Shown here piece by piece: positions 20,131 to 34,123 of a stretch of DNA of 34,236 bases (positions are counted from its first letter, which is position 1; each line of letters starts with the position of its first letter). Under the pieces are notes generated by a model. That model saw nothing but the letters and a program-made list of their open reading frames with translations, searched no databases and was not told the origin of the DNA. The translations under genes and the position numbers were made by a program. Where the stretch lies: NCBI RefSeq assembly GCF_018139625.1, contig NZ_JAGSOH010000079.1, forward strand, positions 1-34,236, given 5' to 3'. The DNA is from Actinospica acidithermotolerans (GTDB taxonomy: Bacteria; Actinomycetota; Actinomycetes; Streptomycetales; Catenulisporaceae).

Positions 20131-20180
20131 GTGGCAGATCCAGGATTCGAACCTGGGTAGCTTGCGCGACGGATTTACAG
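20131..20180. repeat. Left attachment site (displaced tRNA-Tyr 3' part)
   Basis: A 50-bp copy, identical to 34042-34091, of the tRNA-Tyr segment from the anticodon loop to the 3' end plus one base. It continues into unrelated sequence after 20180, so it is not a functional tRNA. It is the chromosome/element junction on the side away from the intact tRNA. Confidence 0.93.
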
Positions 20181-21692: not shown

Positions 21693-23051
21693 TCACATTT
21701 CGTCATTGAGCGCCTGTTCGATCCTCTTGTTCATGGCCTCGTGCTGGCCGTCGATGCACTTGGCGTAGACACGCAGCAGGACTTCGACGCTGTGTCCAGC
21801 GCGCCGAGCCACCTCAGCGGGGTTCACACCGCTGCCGAGCCAGAGAGATACTCCCCCGTGGCGCAAGTCGTACGGCCGTTCTGCGAGTTTCGACACTGCC
21901 TGAGCTTCCGTCAGTGCGGCCGTGCGTGCCCGCTTCCAGGCTGGACCGTAGGTGGACTCCGAAAGAAGGCTCTCCTTGCGCTTGCCGCGGAAGAGTCGCC
22001 CGTCGGCCGCCGTGCCGTGCTCGGCGAGGTGGTGGCGGAGCATCTTCACCAACTCAGGCGGGATCGGCACCGGGCGCATGTCGCCGGCGGCGCGGTGCTT
22101 GAGCCCGCGCACGTCGTGCGCTTCCCCGGTGTCGGTCCACGCTCGTCCGGCCCTTGTTGCGGTCGCGGTTAGGTCCAGTCGTCCCCATCCCTTTGCGGGC
22201 AGGTGGCACTGACTTTGCGTCAGCGACACGGCCTCGGCCGGGCGCATTGCGGCGAAGTACAGGCAGGCGAAGAACGCGGCGAATTCGGGGCGGTGCTTCC
22301 GGACCTCGGCGAGGATCCTGCGTACTTGGGCGGGGTTGGCGACGACGCGCGGATCGACCACTTCGGCTTTCTTCGGCATCGTCCACTTCACGCGATCGAG
22401 CGCGTTGAAGTCGAGCAGTTCGAGCTCCACCGCATATTCAAGTGCGTTGTAGAAGGTCGCGCGCTTCCTGGTGAACGTCGCCGCGCTGGCCGCCCTTCCG
22501 TCCAGCTTCCTGGCGATCGCCTCAAGTCCGCGGCGGGCGGTCGCTGCCTTTTGCAGCGAGCGCAACGGAACGGATGCTCCCGTCGTCCATTCGAGAGCGG
22601 AATTCACGGCGCTAGCGGGCTCGTGCTGTCTGGCGGTCGCGTTGAACGCCCAGCCATAGAGTGCGGCCCTGAGAATGGCGTCGTCCGGCCGCCCCGGCTT
22701 GTCGTATACCAGCCCCATCGTCAGCACGGCCAACGCCTCGGCGATGCTGGTGCGGGTGTTCGCAGCGGCGTGCGGCCATTTCATGTCGAGGTACGAGACG
22801 GCGAATTCGTACCATGTCCTTTCATCGACGACCTCCTGACGCGCCCACGAGACAGGTTCGCCGGTCTCCGTGTCAAACGACTCGCCCGCGCGTGCCGCAG
22901 TAACGAGCTTGGACCGGTGGGTGTCGGCTTGTGCTTGGTACCTGAATGTCTGGCCGAACGATCGCCCCCCGACCTTCCAGCGCAGATAGAACGGTTTGGG
23001 TCGGTCGTACTTCTGAACCTTGTAGATTCGGACGTCAACGGATTCGGTCAT
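21693..23051 (-). CDS. int: Tyrosine site-specific recombinase (integrase)
   Basis: A protein of about 452 residues. The N-terminal ~200 residues carry an arm-binding-like domain (KYDRPKPFYLRWKVGGRSF) and a core-binding SAM-like domain. The catalytic domain has the first Arg in AAMRPAEAVSL (near 269), YDLRHGGVS with the second Arg (near 393), the His of RRAGHSVEVLLRVY and the nucleophile Tyr in RVYAKC (near 427). The usual His of the HxLR box is Tyr, as is common in actinomycete integrases. It should cut within the 50-bp tRNA-Tyr core. Met 23051 follows GAGG at 6 bp; the longer ORF lacks such a site. The excisionase gene lies 84 bp upstream on the same strand. Confidence 0.93.
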   Translation of the reverse strand: MTESVDVRIYKVQKYDRPKPFYLRWKVGGRSFGQTFRYQAQADTHRSKLVTAARAGESFDTETGEPVSWARQEVVDERTWYEFAVSYLDMKWPHAAANTRTSIAEALAVLTMGLVYDKPGRPDDAILRAALYGWAFNATARQHEPASAVNSALEWTTGASVPLRSLQKAATARRGLEAIARKLDGRAASAATFTRKRATFYNALEYAVELELLDFNALDRVKWTMPKKAEVVDPRVVANPAQVRRILAEVRKHRPEFAAFFACLYFAAMRPAEAVSLTQSQCHLPAKGWGRLDLTATATRAGRAWTDTGEAHDVRGLKHRAAGDMRPVPIPPELVKMLRHHLAEHGTAADGRLFRGKRKESLLSESTYGPAWKRARTAALTEAQAVSKLAERPYDLRHGGVSLWLGSGVNPAEVARRAGHSVEVLLRVYAKCIDGQHEAMNKRIEQALNDEM

Positions 23052-23135: not shown

Positions 23136-23339
23136 TCAGGCGGCTTCGGTGCACTTGTCAAGGAATTCGTCCAACGCGGAGTCCCTCACTCGCAACTGCC
23201 CGTTCGGCAGTTTCAGGCATTGCGGCGCCCTACCGATGGTGCGCCACCGGTAGAACGTGGCTTTCGACAGCGGGCGGCCGTGGTCGTCGCGAAGGATCGC
23301 GCAGACCTCGGAGATAGTGAGCAGCCGTTCTTTGCCCAT
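23136..23339 (-). CDS. xis: Excisionase / helix-turn-helix recombination directionality factor
   Basis: A 67-residue winged-helix protein of the MerR-like excisionase group: LLTISEVCAILRD, then SKATFYRWRTIGRAPQCLKL, then NGQLRVRDSALDEFL. The pattern helix - 'YRWRTIGRAP' wing - 'lr...LdefL' is standard for Xis proteins of these elements. The ATG at 23339 follows a near-ideal GGAGG ribosome site. It is upstream of the integrase on the same strand and immediately downstream of the symmetric repeat array, which may hold its promoter. Confidence 0.88.
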   Translation of the reverse strand: MGKERLLTISEVCAILRDDHGRPLSKATFYRWRTIGRAPQCLKLPNGQLRVRDSALDEFLDKCTEAA

Positions 23340-23396: not shown

Positions 23397-23617
23397 CAAC
23401 CGTCCGAAGCGTCCCAACCGTCCGAAGCGGCTCCTGACGTGGGGTGTTGTTCGGACGGTTGGGGTGGACGGACCGTCCGAAGGGGTGGTGTCAACCGTCC
23501 GAAGGGGTGGCATCGGACGGTTGACTCCGGGCTTCGGACGGTTGAGGGTTCGCAACCGTCCGATCGTCAGCGCTGTTCAGCGGTGCCTTCGGACGGTTGG
23601 GACGCTTCGGACGGTTG
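23397..23617. repeat. Ten-copy mirror-symmetric array of a 12-bp motif (candidate origin/iterons)
   Basis: The motif CAACCGTCCGAA occurs on the + strand at 23397, 23415, 23470 (first bases GG), 23492 and 23553 (last base T). It occurs on the minus strand at 23450, 23512 (one end base changed), 23533, 23588 and 23606. Four of the five left/right pairs are exactly equidistant from 23507 and the fifth is off by one base; orientations mirror exactly. The outermost 31 bp (23397-23427 and 23587-23617) are perfect inverted repeats. The array lies between the replication ATPase and excisionase genes, and its right part encodes the QPSE repeats at the ATPase C-terminus. Known elements of this type have their origin next to the replication gene, so initiator binding is likely (inference). 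Confidence 0.85.
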
Positions 23618-25204
23618 CGCCCGGGTACCTTCTGCTGACAGGGCGATGAGCCGGGTGTGGTTCTGGTCGGGGCTTCGGGTGAAGGCGATCTGTACGCCGT
23701 TCTTGCGCAGGGCGGGGGCGACTCTCCGCAGGTGTCCGGAGACGCCTCGGGCGGTGCGTGGCCAGGATTTGAGTTGTCCGTCGGGGGCGGGCAGGTGTTC
23801 GAGTAGTACGCCGGCGGTGCCAGTCCAGTCACGCTTCTCGTGGACGAAGGTGCGGACCGCGTCGGCGAACGGGTCGTATTCGATGACTGCTTCGGTGATC
23901 TCTCGGGCGAGGGCGGTGAAGTCGGCGAAGGTGGTCCATTGGCGTCGGGTGTCGATGGCGGCGAGGATTTTCGCGAAGTCGGCGAGCCGGGGCAGTTCGG
24001 CGACGGCGACGCCCGGCAGTTCGGCGAGCACTTCGGCGGCGAGGTCGAGGACGGCGCCGAGTACGGCCGGGGCGGCTTTGTCGAACGCATCCTTGAGTTC
24101 GTCGTCGGTGCGCCGGTTCTCCGGGGGGATCGGGTCGAGTTCGACCATGAGCAGCCGTTCGGCGAGGTCTCCGCGCAGTGCGCCGGCGTCGATGGAGGTC
24201 ATGCCGATCACGCGGCGGAAGTTCAGGACGGATACGTCGTCGTCGGTGTACAGGGCGCGTTCGACGATGCCGTCTCCGGTCACGGCCTTGCACAGGGTGT
24301 CGGAGAACCAGGGTTGGATCGTGGAGAGGTTGTCGAGCATCACGGTCCAGGACGCGGCGGCCTGCACGGTCCAGGTGCGCGCGTCCTTCGGCCCGCCGCG
24401 CAGCGGGGCCGGTGACGGGTCGATGAGCATCACCATCATGCGGCCAGTGGTGGACTTTGCGGTGCCCTGCTCTCCGGTCAGCGACAGAATCGGATGGGGG
24501 ATGTCCGGGAACAGGGCGGCCACCAACCAGGCGACCAGCAGCCGGAATCCGGGCTCGGAGACGTTGAGCAGCGCTTGAAGCTGGTCGAGTCCGCTCGGGC
24601 CGTTCTTCGGCTCCCTGGTGGGGGTGGGCAGGGGCGAGGTCAGGCGGGTGCGGCGGAACAGGACAGGCGACTCGTCCACGATCTCCCACCCGTCCGGGCC
24701 GATGACCACGGCGCGCCCGTCCGGGGTGCCGAGGTCGAGCACCAGGGCGCCGTCGTGGCGCGCGACCCTTAGGGCGACTGGCTCCGGGTCGGTGTCCACG
24801 GCCTGTCCCTCCAGCACGGTCAGGGCGTCGGCGATGGCGGAGGCGCCGGCGGCGGACTGGTGCTCGTCGAAGAACGCCCGCGCGAGCCGGGTGCGCAGCC
24901 CGTTCTCCCCGCGCAGGGTCAGGGCCAGGCGCGGCCCCTCCAGCGGAACGGCGTAGCACTTGCCGTCGGTGCCCAGCACGGTGCGGAACGAGCGGCGGGC
25001 GAGTGCGACCAGTTTGGTCGCCTGGCTCGGTTTGCCGTCGCCGTAGTCGCCCTCTGTGTCCTCGCGCTCGGCGTCGAGGTGCTTGAGCCGTTCCTCGGCG
25101 CCGCTTGTGCGCAGGAACTCGGCGGCCAGCTCCTCCGGGCTGAGTGCGTCGTCGAGCTCGTCAGGCTCGGGGGTGTGGTTGCCGGGTTCGGGCGTCGCGG
25201 TCAT
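23567..25204 (-). CDS. Replication-associated ATPase/helicase-like protein
   Basis: A 545-residue protein with a P-loop near residues 242-250 (GEQGTAKSTTG, Walker A) and a Walker B-like strand WTVMLDNLS. A sensor-like segment RVIGMTSID and a trailing arginine-rich portion (GDLAERLLMVELD) follow. It resembles ATPases that accompany Prim-Pol proteins in actinomycete elements and phages, probably acting as a replicative helicase or initiator. The N-terminal ~130 residues are acidic and unassigned. ATG 25204 overlaps the Prim-Pol stop as ATGA and follows AAGGAG, so the two are translationally coupled. The last ~15 residues (QPSEASQPSEG) are read from the repeat array. Confidence 0.8.
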   Translation of the reverse strand: MTATPEPGNHTPEPDELDDALSPEELAAEFLRTSGAEERLKHLDAEREDTEGDYGDGKPSQATKLVALARRSFRTVLGTDGKCYAVPLEGPRLALTLRGENGLRTRLARAFFDEHQSAAGASAIADALTVLEGQAVDTDPEPVALRVARHDGALVLDLGTPDGRAVVIGPDGWEIVDESPVLFRRTRLTSPLPTPTREPKNGPSGLDQLQALLNVSEPGFRLLVAWLVAALFPDIPHPILSLTGEQGTAKSTTGRMMVMLIDPSPAPLRGGPKDARTWTVQAAASWTVMLDNLSTIQPWFSDTLCKAVTGDGIVERALYTDDDVSVLNFRRVIGMTSIDAGALRGDLAERLLMVELDPIPPENRRTDDELKDAFDKAAPAVLGAVLDLAAEVLAELPGVAVAELPRLADFAKILAAIDTRRQWTTFADFTALAREITEAVIEYDPFADAVRTFVHEKRDWTGTAGVLLEHLPAPDGQLKSWPRTARGVSGHLRRVAPALRKNGVQIAFTRSPDQNHTRLIALSAEGTRAQPSEASQPSEGTAEQR

Positions 25205-26115
25205 CGGGGTGCTGCTCCTTTCTGCAGCCCGTCCTCGAATGAGCGGCGGGCGGTTGCTTCGGACTTCGCGACGTCGCCGCTGAGATTGCCGACGGCGAAG
25301 TCGAGGGTGTCTCGGGCGAGGTCTTCGGGGACGGTGCCGCGGGCGGCGTGGGTGCCGAGGTTGAAGGCGACCTTGTTTAAGGTGTCGTTGCGGGTGCCGG
25401 GCTTCGCGGCGAGGATCGTGGCGAGCTCCTCGCGCAGCACCTTCGCCGCGTACGCGCCCGGCTGGCGCGGGCCGCCCGCGGGGCGGTTCGGCGGTCGCGT
25501 CGGTGCGACAGGGCGCTGCTTCGGCGCGGTCAGCAGCCGGGCAAGCCAACCGGGCAACGGCTCGGCGTAGGGCTCGCCGAAGGCGCGGTAGGGCTTGCCG
25601 TCCACGATCGATCCGGGGCCGACGACGTAGCCGCCCGCGCCGCGGGTGTCGATCAGCCAGCCGAGTCGCCCGGCGGTGTTGCGCAGCGCCGGGCCGTCGG
25701 GCTGGCGGAAGTACAGGTGCATCCCGCCCCGCCCGGTCACCACGTGGAAGTCGCCCCACGGGAACGGGGCGGCGTACCGCTCGGCGAGCATCACCAGCAC
25801 GTCCGCGCCCTCGTTCACGCCGGGGACGTTGAACGGGGCCGAGGGCGGCGGGGTTTCCGGTTTCGGGGTGTCGCAGTCCACGACCAGCAGCCCAGAGGGG
25901 CCGCAGGCAACGCCGATGTTGTACGGGCCACCCGACCAGCAGCGGCGGATCCGGGTCGGGTCGGTGGTTGCGCGCTGCTCCCACTCGCCGTATAGCGCGG
26001 GGACCTTGGTGCCGGGCTTGAGCGGGAAGACGTGCATACCCCGCTCAGCGAGCATCAGGGCGCTGGTAAGCAGCGTGGTCCGGTCCGCCGTGGCGGCGGT
26101 GGTGGTGACGGTCAC
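25201..26115 (-). CDS. Bifunctional DNA primase/polymerase (Prim-Pol)
   Basis: A 304-residue archaeo-eukaryotic primase-type protein. The N-terminal core shows GMHVFPLKPGTKVPA, NIGVACGPSGLLVVDCD with the metal-binding D-x-D near residue 80, the FHVVTGRGGMHLYFR motif and GWLIDTRGAGGYVVGPGS. The C-terminal part (TRNDTLNKVAFNLGTHAARG ... ARDTLDFA) is the linker/helical region common to RepSA-like proteins. It should make primers or extend DNA to replicate the excised element. GTG 26115 follows GGAGG; the ORF open further upstream is not family-like. It ends ATGA-overlapping with the ATPase gene. In pSAM2-type elements related functions are in one Rep protein; here they are split. Confidence 0.88.
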   Translation of the reverse strand: MTVTTTAATADRTTLLTSALMLAERGMHVFPLKPGTKVPALYGEWEQRATTDPTRIRRCWSGGPYNIGVACGPSGLLVVDCDTPKPETPPPSAPFNVPGVNEGADVLVMLAERYAAPFPWGDFHVVTGRGGMHLYFRQPDGPALRNTAGRLGWLIDTRGAGGYVVGPGSIVDGKPYRAFGEPYAEPLPGWLARLLTAPKQRPVAPTRPPNRPAGGPRQPGAYAAKVLREELATILAAKPGTRNDTLNKVAFNLGTHAARGTVPEDLARDTLDFAVGNLSGDVAKSEATARRSFEDGLQKGAAPR

Positions 26116-26242
26116 GGGAGCCTCCAGAGGGTGTGAACAGGCTGTGGAAGCCGCGCCGCAGTCCGGCCCGGCGCGTGAGCCGGATCGGACCGCGGGCGGG
26201 AAGTTGGCGAGGGTGTCGGTGCGGACGCCTACGCTGAGAGGC

Positions 26243-27025: not shown

Positions 27026-28246
27026 TCAGGCGTGGGCGGGTGCGCCGTTGCGGCAGGAGAAGGGCGAGCAGCCGTCGGGCTCGTCGTCGAGCTGCTCGTC
27101 GGCGGCGTGGTCGAACAGGTTGGCCTGTCGGGCCTTCCATTCGCCGCGGGTCACCTCGTCGATGGGCGCCCGCTCGAGCGGCAAACGGGAACGGTGCAGG
27201 AACGCTTCGCCGCGCAGAGCGCTGCCGTTGGCGTTCGCGCGGGCGGATCCGGCGCGAATGGCGTGGTCGAACTCGATGACGTCGTGCCATTCGGGATTGT
27301 GGAACTCGGTGCAGTCGCAGTGCTCGGCGACCGGCTCGGACTCGCCGGGCAGCACGATCGGATCCCAGTGCCGGCAGGCGACCGGACCGACGAGCAGCCG
27401 CAGACCGTGCTCGTTGCGGTGGTGCCCACAGGCGCACAGGTCGCGCAGGCGCCGCCAGGCGATGTTGTTGTGGAACGGGCAGCCCTTGCACGCGCTCTTG
27501 GGTGTCTTCCCGAATCCGCGGCTGCGCAGGTAGCGCTGGCAGTCGGTTACGGTCCACCCGGTGTGCCCGTCGGCGGCGCCGGGCAGCTCGAGCAGTGGGA
27601 AGGTGTTGCGGGCATAGTTGACATCTGAGTCTTTCGCGCGTTCGAACTCGTCGCGGCTGATCCCGATCCACTGCTCGACGAACACCCCCGCGGGGACCGG
27701 CGTCGGGTGCTCGTAGCCGAGCAGCTCGCGCACCTTCCGCTTGATCGGGGTGACCTTGTATTCGTTGGTGCACTGGCGCCGGGCGATGCCCTCGGGCCGC
27801 TCGATCCGCGGCTTGCCCCACTGCGTGACGATCACGCCGGTGTTCTCGCAGCGCGGGCAAGCCTGCGGCTCGGCGGTGTACCCGTCATCCCGGTAGCCGG
27901 TCCACGAGCAGCCGCACGGGTGTGAGGCGAGCACGTCGCGCACCGTGCGCGGTGCCCCGAGGATGTGCAGCGGCATCGAAGCGAAGTGGTGTTCGGGGTT
28001 GAGTGCGTCTTCGCGGATGTTGCCCGCCGACACCCGGTAGATCGGGATGCCCGCGGGCTCGGCGACCTCCCGCTCAATGCGGTCGAGGTGCTCGTAGACT
28101 GCGTCCGGCTCCCAGCCGGTGTCGGCGAAGATGGCGGCATCGAGCGGGCCGATGCGCCCCTCGGCGGCGAGCAGGAGCAGGGTCGTGGACTGCCTGCCCG
28201 CACCCAGCGACAGGATCCTGAGGGTCGGTTCACTCATCGGGCTCAT
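27026..28246 (-). CDS. PAPS-reductase-like PP-loop protein with two Cys-rich inserts
   Basis: A 406-residue protein. The N-terminus has a PP-loop-type ATP pyrophosphatase segment (ILSLGAGRQSTTLLLLAAEG) followed by AAIFADTGWEPDAVYEHLD, as in PAPS reductase/DndC-like proteins. A Cys-rich insert (HPCGC ... CPRCENTG) comes next. The element- and phage-type core follows: RRQCTNEYKVTPIKRKVRELLG, then SACKGCPFHNNIAW, whose cysteines may hold an Fe-S cluster. A second insert, CACGHHRNEHG ... CRHWD ... CDCTEFH, looks like a separate zinc module. Substrate is unknown; nucleic-acid or small-molecule sulfur chemistry is possible. ATG 28246 follows GGAGGAAGG and overlaps the upstream stop as ATGA. Confidence 0.72.
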   Translation of the reverse strand: MSPMSEPTLRILSLGAGRQSTTLLLLAAEGRIGPLDAAIFADTGWEPDAVYEHLDRIEREVAEPAGIPIYRVSAGNIREDALNPEHHFASMPLHILGAPRTVRDVLASHPCGCSWTGYRDDGYTAEPQACPRCENTGVIVTQWGKPRIERPEGIARRQCTNEYKVTPIKRKVRELLGYEHPTPVPAGVFVEQWIGISRDEFERAKDSDVNYARNTFPLLELPGAADGHTGWTVTDCQRYLRSRGFGKTPKSACKGCPFHNNIAWRRLRDLCACGHHRNEHGLRLLVGPVACRHWDPIVLPGESEPVAEHCDCTEFHNPEWHDVIEFDHAIRAGSARANANGSALRGEAFLHRSRLPLERAPIDEVTRGEWKARQANLFDHAADEQLDDEPDGCSPFSCRNGAPAHA

Positions 28247-28671
28247 GGCCTTCCTCCGGGCTTGGGGCTGGCGGTATTGGCGCGGGCCTTCTTCCACTGG
28301 TTGATCACGTGCGGGCAGGGCTTGGCCCCGGCGTACTTGCCGCCCTTGCGCAGCCGGATCACGCCGGTTCCGTTGCACCGCTTGCACGGCTTTCCGGCAC
28401 CGGGACGAGCGGCGGCGGTCTTCTTCGGCGCCGGGGGCTTGCTCGTGGTCTGCTTCGCGGCCAGCGCGGGGCCGATCAGGTTCGGGGCGGGGTTGGCGGC
28501 GAGGGTGCGGCGGCGTTCGATCTGCCGCTCGGCTCGGCGTGCGGCGGCGGCGTTGCGCCGCTTGCTCAGTGCTTTGAGGGTGCGGCGGGTGCGGCGGCGG
28601 ATCGCGCGCGTCAGGTGCCGCTTGAGCGCGCGCGGTCCGGGCCGGTGGATCGTACGGACGGTCGCAGACAT
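28243..28671 (-). CDS. Basic protein with DnaJ-type zinc knuckle
   Basis: A 142-residue protein. The first ~90 residues are strongly basic (HLTRAIRRRTRRTLKALSKR), suggesting nucleic-acid binding. The C-terminus has CKRCNGTGV with a later CPH, the CxxCxGxG pattern of DnaJ-like zinc fingers. ATG 28671 follows GGAGA; the long ORF upstream runs through palindromic DNA and is not protein-like. Its TGA overlaps the start of the PAPS-reductase-like gene as ATGA, so the two products are probably made together and may act together (inference). Confidence 0.65.
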   Translation of the reverse strand: MSATVRTIHRPGPRALKRHLTRAIRRRTRRTLKALSKRRNAAAARRAERQIERRRTLAANPAPNLIGPALAAKQTTSKPPAPKKTAAARPGAGKPCKRCNGTGVIRLRKGGKYAGAKPCPHVINQWKKARANTASPKPGGRP

Positions 28672-28927: not shown

Positions 28928-29672
28928 TCAGCCGTCCTGCTGCGGGCTCCAGCTCGCGGGCATCGCCGCTTCGAGGTCGGCGCGGCGGTACCCGGCGAGG
29001 TTCGCCTTGTCGGCCCCGGCACGCACTTGCTTGCTCGAGCGCACCACGCCCGCCGCCTCGAGCTTCGCCGCGAGGGTGTCCGCGGTCAGGTCGCCCCACG
29101 CGTCGTCGTCGAGTGTGGCAAGGCCGGTGAGCAGGTCGGTGGTGTGCATGGTCGGGGTGTGGCGCATCACCGTGAGGCAGTCGGTCAGGATCGCCGGGAC
29201 GGTGACCTGCGGCGCGGCGAGGTCGGCGAGCTTGCCGGCGGCGTCTCCGGTGAGGGTTCCGGCGGCCTGCCGCAGCGCGCGGCCCTTCTCGCAGATCACG
29301 GAGAACGCGGGAAGATCGAGGTAGTCGGTGCGGACGGTGTCAAACTCCGCGGGGCCGGTGACCAGCACGCCGACGCCCATGTGCTCGGCTGAGAGCAGCG
29401 AGGCGTCGGCGCCGATGGCGGCCTTGCCCTTGCCGAGCACCATGTCGGAGCTGGCCTTGTCCACGCAGCGCACCGAGAAGCGGATGGAGATGATCTCCCG
29501 GAGTTTCGTCGGCACCGAGTCCGAGTCGGGGCGCTGCGAGGCGAGGTCGGTGATGAACCCGGCCGCCGGACCACGGCGCGCCAGACGGCACAGCATCTCC
29601 AACGCCAGGTCGTAATCGGCCTTGTCGAGGGCGGAGAAGTACTCCTGAAGCTCGTCGAGCGAGCATCCCCAT
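28928..29672 (-). pseudogene. FtsK/TraB-type DNA translocase, C-terminal remnant
   Basis: The minus-strand frame reads SLDELQEYFSALDKAD, then LCRLARRGPAAGFITDLASQRPDSDS, SVRCVDKASSDMVLGKGKA and AGTLTGDAAGKL. These are the Walker B region (hydrophobics, DE, Q) and the ASQRP and DMVLG motifs of double-stranded DNA translocases used by AICEs for conjugation. Upstream the frame leaves the family at about 29670 without a start codon; TTG 29602 is the first possible. The Walker A half (GxxGSGKS) is absent from every ORF in the window. A deletion rather than a simple frameshift is therefore likely, and the product cannot hydrolyse ATP. Confidence 0.85.
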
Positions 29673-30143
29673 GAACGCCTTGAGCGCGTCGGACTCGGCG
29701 CCGGTGACGTACCGGTGCGCGATCCGGCTCACGGCCTTCCAGTCCCGGCCGCCCTTGCCGTCGGCGCAGTAGATCCGCGCGTACGGGTCCAGGGCCGCCG
29801 CGGCTGCGGGGGCGGCCTGCTTCGGCGCGCTGGCGAACGCCGCGCGGGCTGTACGGACCGTCCGCGTCGGGACCTGCCGGGCGCCGAGCTCGGCCCGGAC
29901 GGCGACGCGCCGCGCAGCGTGCTGAGCCGGAGTCAGGTCGAACTTGAGCGCCTGCGCCGAACCGGTGCAGCGGTGCCCGTCCGGCTTGTGCGTCTGGACC
30001 AGACCGCGCACCACTTCCACCCAGCGGTGGCACTCGGGGCACACCAGCCACGCCGAGCCGGTGGCGGGAAGGTCGAGGTCGAGAGCCGGAAGGGTGCTGA
30101 TTGCAATCGCCGGACGGCCGTTGGTGCGGGAGGTAGAAGACAT
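29340..30143 (-). CDS. Chimeric ORF: front part of an element gene fused out of frame to the FtsK remnant
   Basis: ATG 30143 follows AAGGAG. The first ~155 residues look native: VCPECHRWVEVVRGLVQTHK with HRCTG (probable zinc site), LTPAQHAARRVAVRAELGAR, then IYCADGKGGRDWKAVSRIAH and SDALKAFMGM. Such text is seen as a separate hypothetical protein upstream of transfer genes in related elements (family knowledge, not named). After about 29675 the frame enters the FtsK remnant out of register and becomes Arg/Pro/Gly-rich (GVLLRPRQGRLRPGVGD), ending at 29340. The original C-terminus is lost. The gene is divergent from the GntR regulator. Confidence 0.6.
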   Translation of the reverse strand: MSSTSRTNGRPAIAISTLPALDLDLPATGSAWLVCPECHRWVEVVRGLVQTHKPDGHRCTGSAQALKFDLTPAQHAARRVAVRAELGARQVPTRTVRTARAAFASAPKQAAPAAAAALDPYARIYCADGKGGRDWKAVSRIAHRYVTGAESDALKAFMGMLARRASGVLLRPRQGRLRPGVGDAVPSGAPWSGGRVHHRPRLAAPRLGLGADETPGDHLHPLLGALRGQGQLRHGARQGQGRHRRRRLAALSRAHGRRRAGHRPRGV

Positions 30144-30433
30144 GACGGGGCCACTCCTTCGTACGTGAAGGGACGGGGAAGCCTGAAAGGAAAGGTGATG
30201 CAGAGCCCTGGTTCTCCGCTGCCGACGGACCGCAGAGCGGCCGTAGACGGTGGACAGCGAGAGCGCTGTCTGCCCGCAACGCAGTCGGGAGCTGGCGGCC
30301 AACGCCGTGCCATCCCGGGACCTGGTGCCTGCGCGGCCTCGCGACCTGCGCCGTCATCCGGAAACCCCCGACCAAGCGGGCTATGGAGTTCTCAACGAGC
30401 GTGTGCGCAACAACCGGGCGCCACAAGTCCCTG

Positions 30434-30446
30434 TTGTTGGTACAAC
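30434..30446 (+). promoter_or_regulatory. GntR-type operator copy 1
   Basis: TTGTTGGTACAAC, a 13-bp sequence with TTGT/ACAA half-sites, identical to the copy at 30503. It lies in the 389-bp divergent region (30144-30532) between the chimeric gene and the GntR regulator. It is probably bound by that regulator and may control the leftward transcript (inference). Confidence 0.55.
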
Positions 30447-30502
30447 TGGTGCTAACTCGAGATTGGAGCATCACGGCTTCGCTGTCAAGGGACTTGGCGG
30501 TA

Positions 30503-30515
30503 TTGTTGGTACAAC
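30503..30515 (+). promoter_or_regulatory. GntR-type operator copy 2
   Basis: Second exact copy of TTGTTGGTACAAC, 69 bp after the first and 17 bp before the regulator's GTG start. The position fits autorepression by the GntR protein, as described for KorSA-type regulators of actinomycete elements. Confidence 0.6.
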
Positions 30516-30532
30516 ATCCTTTGGAGGTGGAC

Positions 30533-31303
30533 GTGCCCATCGATCCGCACAGCTCACGCGCGCTGTACCGGCAGCTTGCCGACGAATTGCGGTCCAAGAT
30601 CTACAGCGGGGAGCTCAAGCCTGGTGCGCAACTACCGACGGAGCGAGAGCTCATGGAGCAGTTCGATGCCTCGCGGAACACCGTGCGCCTCGCCCTGGGC
30701 CAACTCGCCAACGAGGGCTTGACTGTGAGCGGACGGGGCCGGGGGCATTTCGTGCGAGCAAGCGCCCCCTTGCTCTTCTTGGCCACGCGCTCCGAATCGC
30801 CGGACCGACGCGCCAACACGGCGAACGATGCTTGGACCACAGACGTAACCGCCCAGGGCAGAACCCCCGCTCAAACCATCGAAGTCTCCATCGTGCGCCC
30901 CCCACAGAACGTGGCGTCGCTCTTGGAGCTCGAGGAAGGCGAGACGACCGCCCTGCGCACGCGTCTCCGGACCGTGGACGGCGAAGCGAACTCGCTTTCA
31001 ATGAGCTACTTTCCGATGTCGATCGTGGCGACGACAGAGATCGTCCAGCCCGATGACATAGTCCGAGGCGCCAACCGGGTGTTGGCCGAGATCGGGCACG
31101 ACCAGGTGCGGTACTTGGACCAGATCACGGCGCGCATGCCGACGCCAGATGAGCGGGATGCACTCCGTATCGGCGCCGGCATCCCGGTCCACGAGCACGT
31201 TCGCGTTGGCTACGACGCTGACGACGTGCCGGTACGCGTCGCCGTGACGGTGCTACCCGCGGACAGGCACATCATCCAGTATGAGCTGGCCAATGCCCAA
31301 TAG
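30533..31303 (+). CDS. GntR/HutC-family transcriptional regulator (KorSA-like)
   Basis: A 256-residue regulator. The N-terminal winged helix reads YRQLADELRSKIYSGELKPG, LPTERELMEQFDASRNTVRLAL, then LTVSGRGRGHFV, the standard GntR domain. The remaining ~170 residues are a UTRA ligand-binding domain (LLELEEGETTALRTRLRTVDGE ... HEHVRVGYDADDVPVRVAVTVLP). In AICEs a GntR protein of this group represses excision and transfer genes. GTG 30533 follows GGAGG at 6 bp; the longer ORF reads through the operator. It overlaps the next gene by 23 bp. Two operator repeats lie upstream. Confidence 0.9.
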   Translation: MPIDPHSSRALYRQLADELRSKIYSGELKPGAQLPTERELMEQFDASRNTVRLALGQLANEGLTVSGRGRGHFVRASAPLLFLATRSESPDRRANTANDAWTTDVTAQGRTPAQTIEVSIVRPPQNVASLLELEEGETTALRTRLRTVDGEANSLSMSYFPMSIVATTEIVQPDDIVRGANRVLAEIGHDQVRYLDQITARMPTPDERDALRIGAGIPVHEHVRVGYDADDVPVRVAVTVLPADRHIIQYELANAQ

Positions 31304-34041: not shown

Positions 34042-34091
34042 GTGGCAGATCCAGGATTCGAACCTGGGTAGCTTGCGCGACGGATTTACAG
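34042..34091. repeat. Right attachment site within tRNA-Tyr
   Basis: A 50-bp perfect copy of 20131-20180. It covers the tRNA from the anticodon loop to its 3' end, plus one base. The tRNA stays intact because the element side restores the same bases. Integration at the anticodon loop with the repeat running to the tRNA 3' end is the common pattern for this class of integrase. Confidence 0.93.
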
Positions 34092-34123
34092 TCCGCTCCC
34101 ATTGGCCGCTCGGGCAATCTGCC
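34043..34123 (-). tRNA. tRNA-Tyr (anticodon GUA)
   Basis: An 81-nt tRNA on the minus strand. The acceptor stem GGCAGAT pairs with ATCTGCC, with A as discriminator base. A D-arm CCC/GGG, an anticodon loop CTGTAAA with GTA at 34087-34089, a variable region of about 12 nt and a T-arm CCAGG-TTCGAAT-CCTGG are all present. It hosts the element's attachment site. The genomic CCA is not encoded. Confidence 0.96.

Follow-up and report, generated by a model that had tools for sequence, protein, structure and literature searches.

The closest described systems combine a replication protein gene with a region of short repeats. The minimal replicon of the Streptomyces plasmid pWTY27 is composed of a Prim-Pol protein (RepB), the protein RepA and a 300-bp iteron region; in the available part of that report, a footprint of RepA covers a long inverted repeat and the plasmid is reported to replicate bidirectionally (PMC3583192). 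A statement in the same source indicates that the RepA protein of the plasmid pFP11 was reported to bind iterons (PMC3583192). The staphylococcal pri-rep-ori module of SaPI and the protein Cch2 of SCCmec represent self-loading helicases with C-terminal origin recognition, for which two hexamers have been proposed; their iterons are located directly downstream of the helicase gene, the Cch2 site contains three of them, and a mirror layout is not described in the part of the text available (PMC7581432). Concerning the AICEs, the accessible part of the survey covering the SLP1 RepPP module describes no origin for Prim-Pol modules (PMC3218068).

The window analysed here is a stretch of 34,236 nucleotides from Actinospica acidithermotolerans (order Streptomycetales, class Actinomycetes; contig NZ_JAGSOH010000079.1). 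It contains an element of 14.0 kb between 50-bp direct repeats, at 20131-20180 (left end, attachment site) and at 34042-34091 (right end), the latter inside a tRNA-Tyr gene (34042-34123). The order of genes on the minus strand is a Prim-Pol primase/polymerase (25201-26118; PF09250, E 1.5e-43), a RepPP-like ATPase (23567-25204), a xis-like HTH protein (23136-23339; HTH_17, and PHROG excisionase family with E 6.4e-5) and a tyrosine integrase (21693-23051; PF00589 with 26.3 bits, just below the cut-off of 27.1 bits). The element thus displays features of the AICEs, namely a tyrosine integrase with attachment repeats at a tRNA gene, and a second replication gene after that of the Prim-Pol. No intact FtsK/SpoIIIE-type transfer gene was found in the element. 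The region 28928-29602 shows 59% identity over 99% to a gene annotated as FtsK/SpoIIIE, but only this later part is open in its frame, and the Pfam search of this region gave only a weak match to DUF3631; FtsK-like sequence was read upstream in another frame (28928-30302 overall), so that the transfer gene appears broken. The element may not be self-transferring. It also encodes a phosphoadenosine phosphosulfate reductase-like protein (27026-28387; PHROG 424, E 1.9e-45) and a GntR/UTRA regulator (30383-31303), and GntR-family genes are also found near Prim-Pol genes on the Streptomyces plasmids examined. A tRNA-Pro that ARAGORN predicts at 23751-23839, within the ATPase gene but on the other strand, is probably false.

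Between the ATPase gene and xis is located an array of 221 bp (23397-23617) that contains ten copies of the 12-mer CAACCGTCCGAA, seven exact, two with one mismatch and one with two. With up to two mismatches, CAACCGTCCGAA has 12 matches across the window, 10 of them within the array; the number of matches over the whole window in 100 shuffles was 4.0 on average and 10 at maximum. The 7.9-Mb genome contains 8 exact copies, 7 of them in the array, and the lone copy outside (contig C403) is, by our estimate, about what chance would give. At either end of the array, three sites follow one another in 9-bp steps. The xis-side outer cluster (23397-23427, plus strand) contains the cores 23398-23405, 23407-23414 and 23416-23423, and the rep-side outer cluster (23587-23617, minus strand) the cores 23591-23598, 23600-23607 and 23609-23616; the middle core of each cluster is a weaker site, AAGCGTCC, detected with the 8-mer core AACCGTCC when one mismatch is allowed. 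Inward of the clusters, a single opposed iteron is found on each side, at 23450-23461 (minus strand, exact) and at 23553-23564 (plus strand, one mismatch). The inner iterons are at 23470-23481 (plus, two mismatches), 23492-23503 (plus, exact), 23512-23523 (minus, one mismatch) and 23533-23544 (minus, exact), which gives the site order +++-++--+---.

The mirror arrangement claimed in the preliminary description was confirmed: the orientations form an exact mirror about the centre at 23507, and the midpoints of the pairs sum to 47014 for four pairs and to 47015 for the innermost one (23492 and 23512), which is off by one base. When ten 12-mers were placed at random positions in 221 bp, with random orientation, none of 20,000 trials produced ten symmetric sites and 41 produced eight or more. 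When the weaker sites are included, 12 of 12 sites are symmetric (gap-shuffle mean 5.2, p = 0.002, 1000 shuffles). The outer 31 bp on both sides are perfect inverted repeats, as had been described, and the spacers further inward agree at 13 of 44 positions, close to the chance level. The inner sites thus hold their position and orientation although the spacers between them are not alike, as the preliminary description had argued. One end of the array is 57 bases from the start codon of xis; the array is not purely intergenic, since 23588-23617 belongs to the ATPase coding sequence near its 3' end (stop codon at 23567-23569), where it encodes QPSEASQPSE. This overlap of end-run iterons with the 3' end of the Rep coding sequence, translated into C-terminal peptide repeats with a period of 9 bases (QPSEASQPSE, SATSATSAT), was also observed in several of the loci L026-L035 and L123-L135, and the C-terminal extensions of Streptomyces ATPase relatives and of RepAM proteins contain comparable encoded repeats. 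The origins of SaPI contain an AT-rich region. Unlike these, the window array has no AT-rich stretch, and no AT-rich unwinding region was found in or beside it; across 49 RepPP arrays, the sole departure in base composition is a drop to 58% GC over the 50 bp on the rep side.

The locus shares with pWTY27 a Prim-Pol, a second Rep and a repeat region (about 300 bp in pWTY27) with the repeat on both strands, although the motifs differ (GTGGGAA in pWTY27 and CCGTCC in the window, a comparison based on the published description; PMC3583192, available part). The ATPase of pFP11 (NC_006911) is homologous to that of the window (41.3% identity over 88%, E 6e-75), and in both cases an array is found 3' of the ATPase gene with sites on both strands, of TGCGTCCC in pFP11. 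The pFP11 array differs from that of the window in lying about 550-900 bp downstream, beyond an intervening small gene, and in having no opposed end runs by our criteria. Features of the pFP11/pWTY27 type are thus present (a repeat array on both strands by the rep genes, a Rep homologous to the pFP11 ATPase), together with features of the self-loading helicases of the SaPI/SCC type (a D5/SF3-like predicted fold, iterons directly downstream of the helicase gene; PMC7581432, as far as available).

No family match was obtained for the ATPase in Pfam, PHROG or NCBIfam, and no more than three weak matches (E 0.067-0.076) came from a profile search against PDB sequences. The AlphaFold model (mean pLDDT 82.6) contains, in our reading, a P-loop ATPase core and a C-terminal winged helix (residues 445-524 approximately). 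After VIA re-alignment, the best match of this model was the SaPI5 primase-helicase (7ola; Z 19.9, rmsd 6.3, 374 residues aligned), with Z values up to 18.0 for D5/E5; ranked by E-value in Foldseek, AsfvPrimPol came first and SaPI5 fifth. The predicted fold resembles that of a D5/SF3-like hexameric helicase, with the self-loading helicase of SaPI5 as the nearest structure in the re-alignment.

Of 391 genomes from the order, 150 contain relatives of the ATPase, as do 40 of 394 genomes drawn from the class (the two sets overlap); further relatives are found in 31 plasmid and 2 phage records. A subset of 97 RepPP loci was examined, composed of loci from the searches, 40 picked from the order list, four plasmid loci and the window. 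The main array count covers 93 of them, without the duplicate L011 and without L159-L163, to which L038, L149, L151 and L152 are added. The search for arrays began 60 bp ahead of the matched end of the ATPase gene and extended 1.1 kb beyond it; an array was called when its score exceeded the highest of 20 shuffles by 2 or more. An array was found within 1.1 kb 3' of the ATPase gene in 80 of the 97 loci, window included, 71 of which start within 320 bp of the matched end; control regions contained an array in 10 of 90 cases upstream and in 4 of 93 inside the gene. The remaining 17 loci have no array by this cut, 13 being below the score and four (L038, L149, L151 and L152) lacking any repeated 8-mer. 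The iteron motifs are clade-specific. The preliminary description, which would have been contradicted by a lack of copies next to the Prim-Pol modules of related elements, is upheld on this point by the arrays found. Six of the 80 counted arrays (L013, L014, L017, L019, L021 and L024, from elements of the order) consist of a different repeat of the CAGGGAGG type further downstream; these loci also have CGTCC-type sites near the gene end, and the second array (CAGGGAGG, GGGAGGCA or GCCTCCCC type) lies beyond the ATPase match on its 3' side, at a distance of about 550-1090 bp.

Opposed end runs are present in 55 of the 80 RepPP arrays, 44 of these spanning 204-234 bp, and are absent by our criteria from the other 25. 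The site order of the window is found outside the order in L136 and L137 (59-60% identity), and L138 has the same ends with two inner sites missing; in these three loci the gap of the right arm measures 47-49 bp, compared with 37 bp for the window. They therefore do not share the exact equidistance of the window, although L136 and L137 share its order of sites. The locus L009 of Catenulispora rubra (65% identity) has twelve sites in the order +++---+++---. Among 46 loci with end runs (the nine with ambiguous runs, L029, L031, L034, L036, L067, L090, L141, L150 and L157, being dropped from the 55), the arm gaps are equal within 1 bp in 10, differ by 9-14 bp in 30 and fall otherwise in 6; many of these loci are close relatives, and the gap is uncertain where only two of the three end sites were found. 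A phase test in this set gave no peak at 10.5, and helical phasing is not claimed. Exact mirroring reached p < 0.05 against gap shuffles in 9 of 72 RepPP arrays, where 3.6 are expected by chance, and 398 of 862 sites are mirror-symmetric for a null value of 333, a small excess; the loci of the survey are related, and the p-values per locus are not independent.

The motifs were compared with the ATPase sequences in 19 dereplicated RepPP loci. The distance between motifs correlates with the distance between C-terminal domains (r 0.49), and the partial Mantel correlation given the core is r = 0.40 (p = 0.0002); for the motif and the core given the C-terminal domain, it is r = -0.08, not significant. 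In these sequence comparisons, the iteron motif varies with the C-terminal domain of the ATPase and not with its core. The loci L031 and L144, which belong to different families of the class, have the common motif AGCACCCG and a similar sequence of the C-terminal wing.

The RepAM/DUF3631 replicons display a similar outer layout. Among 30 RepAM loci, an array was detected 3' of rep in 18 (4 in the upstream control) and opposed end runs in 14, the motif being mostly of the CCGCTACC or TCCGCCAC type and thus different from that of the window. These arrays are often exactly mirrored: 9 of 13 distinct arrays retained under a stricter cut have p < 0.05 against gap shuffles (the loci being related), 104 of 159 sites are mirror-symmetric for a null value of 59, a clear excess, and the arm gaps are equal within 1 bp in 9 of 14. 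The base-exact equidistance is found in the window element, in most testable RepAM arrays and in few RepPP arrays, and is not general in RepPP. The separation of the end runs is usually about 205-235 bp in RepPP and 130-250 bp in RepAM. On the plasmids L062 and L063, an array of the RepAM type is located between repAM and an HTH gene preceding the integrase. In another RepAM subgroup (L109, L119, L120 and L121), dense CGGTCCCC repeats on both strands were observed upstream of the DUF3631 match, and are perhaps the origin of this subgroup, on the other side of the gene.

In our reading, the RepAM consensus has a conserved P-loop and acidic motifs, and the model a C-terminal winged helix; the core is poorly predicted (pLDDT under 50 at residues 85-168), so that the Foldseek matches of RepAM to MCM and D5 proteins carry little weight. 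The comparison of the RepAM and RepPP profiles gave an hhalign probability of 3.6 (E 0.012), values that do not show the two to be homologous. We tentatively propose, with a confidence a little short of even, that a single layout (opposed end runs in 9-bp steps, with a lone opposed site inward on each side) is common to actinobacterial replicons with RepPP and with RepAM/DUF3631, initiators that are classified separately, the iteron word being rewritten with the initiator. If so, the RepAM elements, predicted to be rolling-circle in the available part of the AICE survey (PMC3218068), would be helicase-driven theta replicons that load two opposed hexamers.

The presence of related layouts with other motifs beside ATPase relatives and some RepAM replicons argues, at the level of sequence, for the iteron array of a replication initiator that the preliminary description had suggested. 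The same inverted repeats could act as a fold-back structure rather than as individual protein sites, forming either a cruciform in the DNA or, in the rep-xis-int transcript, a hairpin that limits read-through. The single-stranded array folds far more strongly than its shuffles (-93.6 versus -45.3 kcal/mol, z -14), a stem-loop recognised by RepA is proposed by the authors of pWTY27 (PMC3583192, available part), and pRN1 depends on a stem-loop of 100 nt located 3' of the replication gene (PMC4234260, available part). However, any mirror array folds well, so that the folding does not discriminate; the inner spacers match no better than chance, many relatives have unequal arms and inner sites lacking a mirror partner, and the motif co-varies with a protein domain, all of which makes this explanation improbable. 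The proximity of xis suggests instead an operator or binding region of the Xis-like HTH protein, or of another regulator, that would couple replication with excision, and tblastn with the xis of the window matches the downstream DNA in 22 of 99 RepPP loci, window included (the flanks are of unequal length). We consider this coupling, already put forward in the preliminary description, very unlikely, because the motif tracks the C-terminal domain of the ATPase, an outer cluster is inside the ATPase gene, and arrays are kept on plasmids with no xis or int seen alongside. In L040 (pFP11), L064 and L065, the array is 3' of a related ATPase and the adjacent gene table, which is incomplete, contains neither gene; L041, seen only to the end of the record, likewise shows neither. 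With the xis and int of the window, tblastn gave no match in the retrieved downstream DNA of these four loci; pFP11 carries an integrase gene elsewhere on the plasmid.

Short repeats are also contained in the clt loci of Streptomyces plasmids (PMC3583192, available part), but a conjugal clt locus bound by an FtsK/TraB-like translocase is an explanation to which we attach hardly any credence, the array being about 5 kb from the FtsK-like gene of the element, which appears broken, and the traB/FtsK genes being about 3 kb from the array in L062 and L063. A further explanation concerns only the geometry and overlaps the reading of the array as an origin: the exact mirror could be a by-product of an inverted duplication and not be selected. 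The outer 31 bp are still perfect and most RepPP arrays are only roughly mirrored, as this would predict, whereas the inner sites keep position and orientation with spacers diverged to chance, and exact mirroring recurs with a different motif in the related loci of RepAM; on balance we regard such a by-product as rather unlikely. The selection for geometry suggested in the preliminary description is retained in part, as there are signs of selection on the layout, and is limited by the small number of RepPP arrays with base-exact equidistance.

With high confidence, we interpret the array as the replication origin of the integrative element, composed of binding sites for the C-terminal winged helix of the adjacent RepPP ATPase, a self-loading helicase-initiator working with the Prim-Pol. 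According to this interpretation, RepPP is predicted to bind the array through its C-terminal winged-helix domain; each of the two mirror halves would assemble one hexamer, in opposite polarity, to form a head-to-head pair that would start bidirectional theta replication after excision, and the Prim-Pol would prime on the opened DNA. The parallels with SaPI and pWTY27 lead us to see in the array the site where the excised element would start to replicate, made of two half-origins for one helicase ring each; the loading of two hexamers is suggested by analogy only.

The array is real and probably functions as an origin of a type already known, that of self-loading helicases acting at iterons. 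Its distinctive feature is the unusually regular opposed layout, kept across motifs and seemingly across two initiator families. The statement that no described origin has such a geometry has to be softened, as both strands of the 300-bp origin of pWTY27 carry copies of one repeat, placed around a long inverted repeat that RepA binds (PMC3583192, available part); the openly licensed literature searched, as far as its text was available, does not describe this mirror layout, which is not proof of its absence. Mobile elements with a Prim-Pol are common among the actinobacterial genomes covered here, and the survey of AICE replication, in its available part, names genes and no origin for the Prim-Pol modules (PMC3218068). 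A layout that stays constant while the motif changes provides a way to find origins by sequence and to pair each of them with its initiator. It also lets the two-orientation placement of a self-loading helicase be tested, and makes the rolling-circle claim for the RepAM elements testable.
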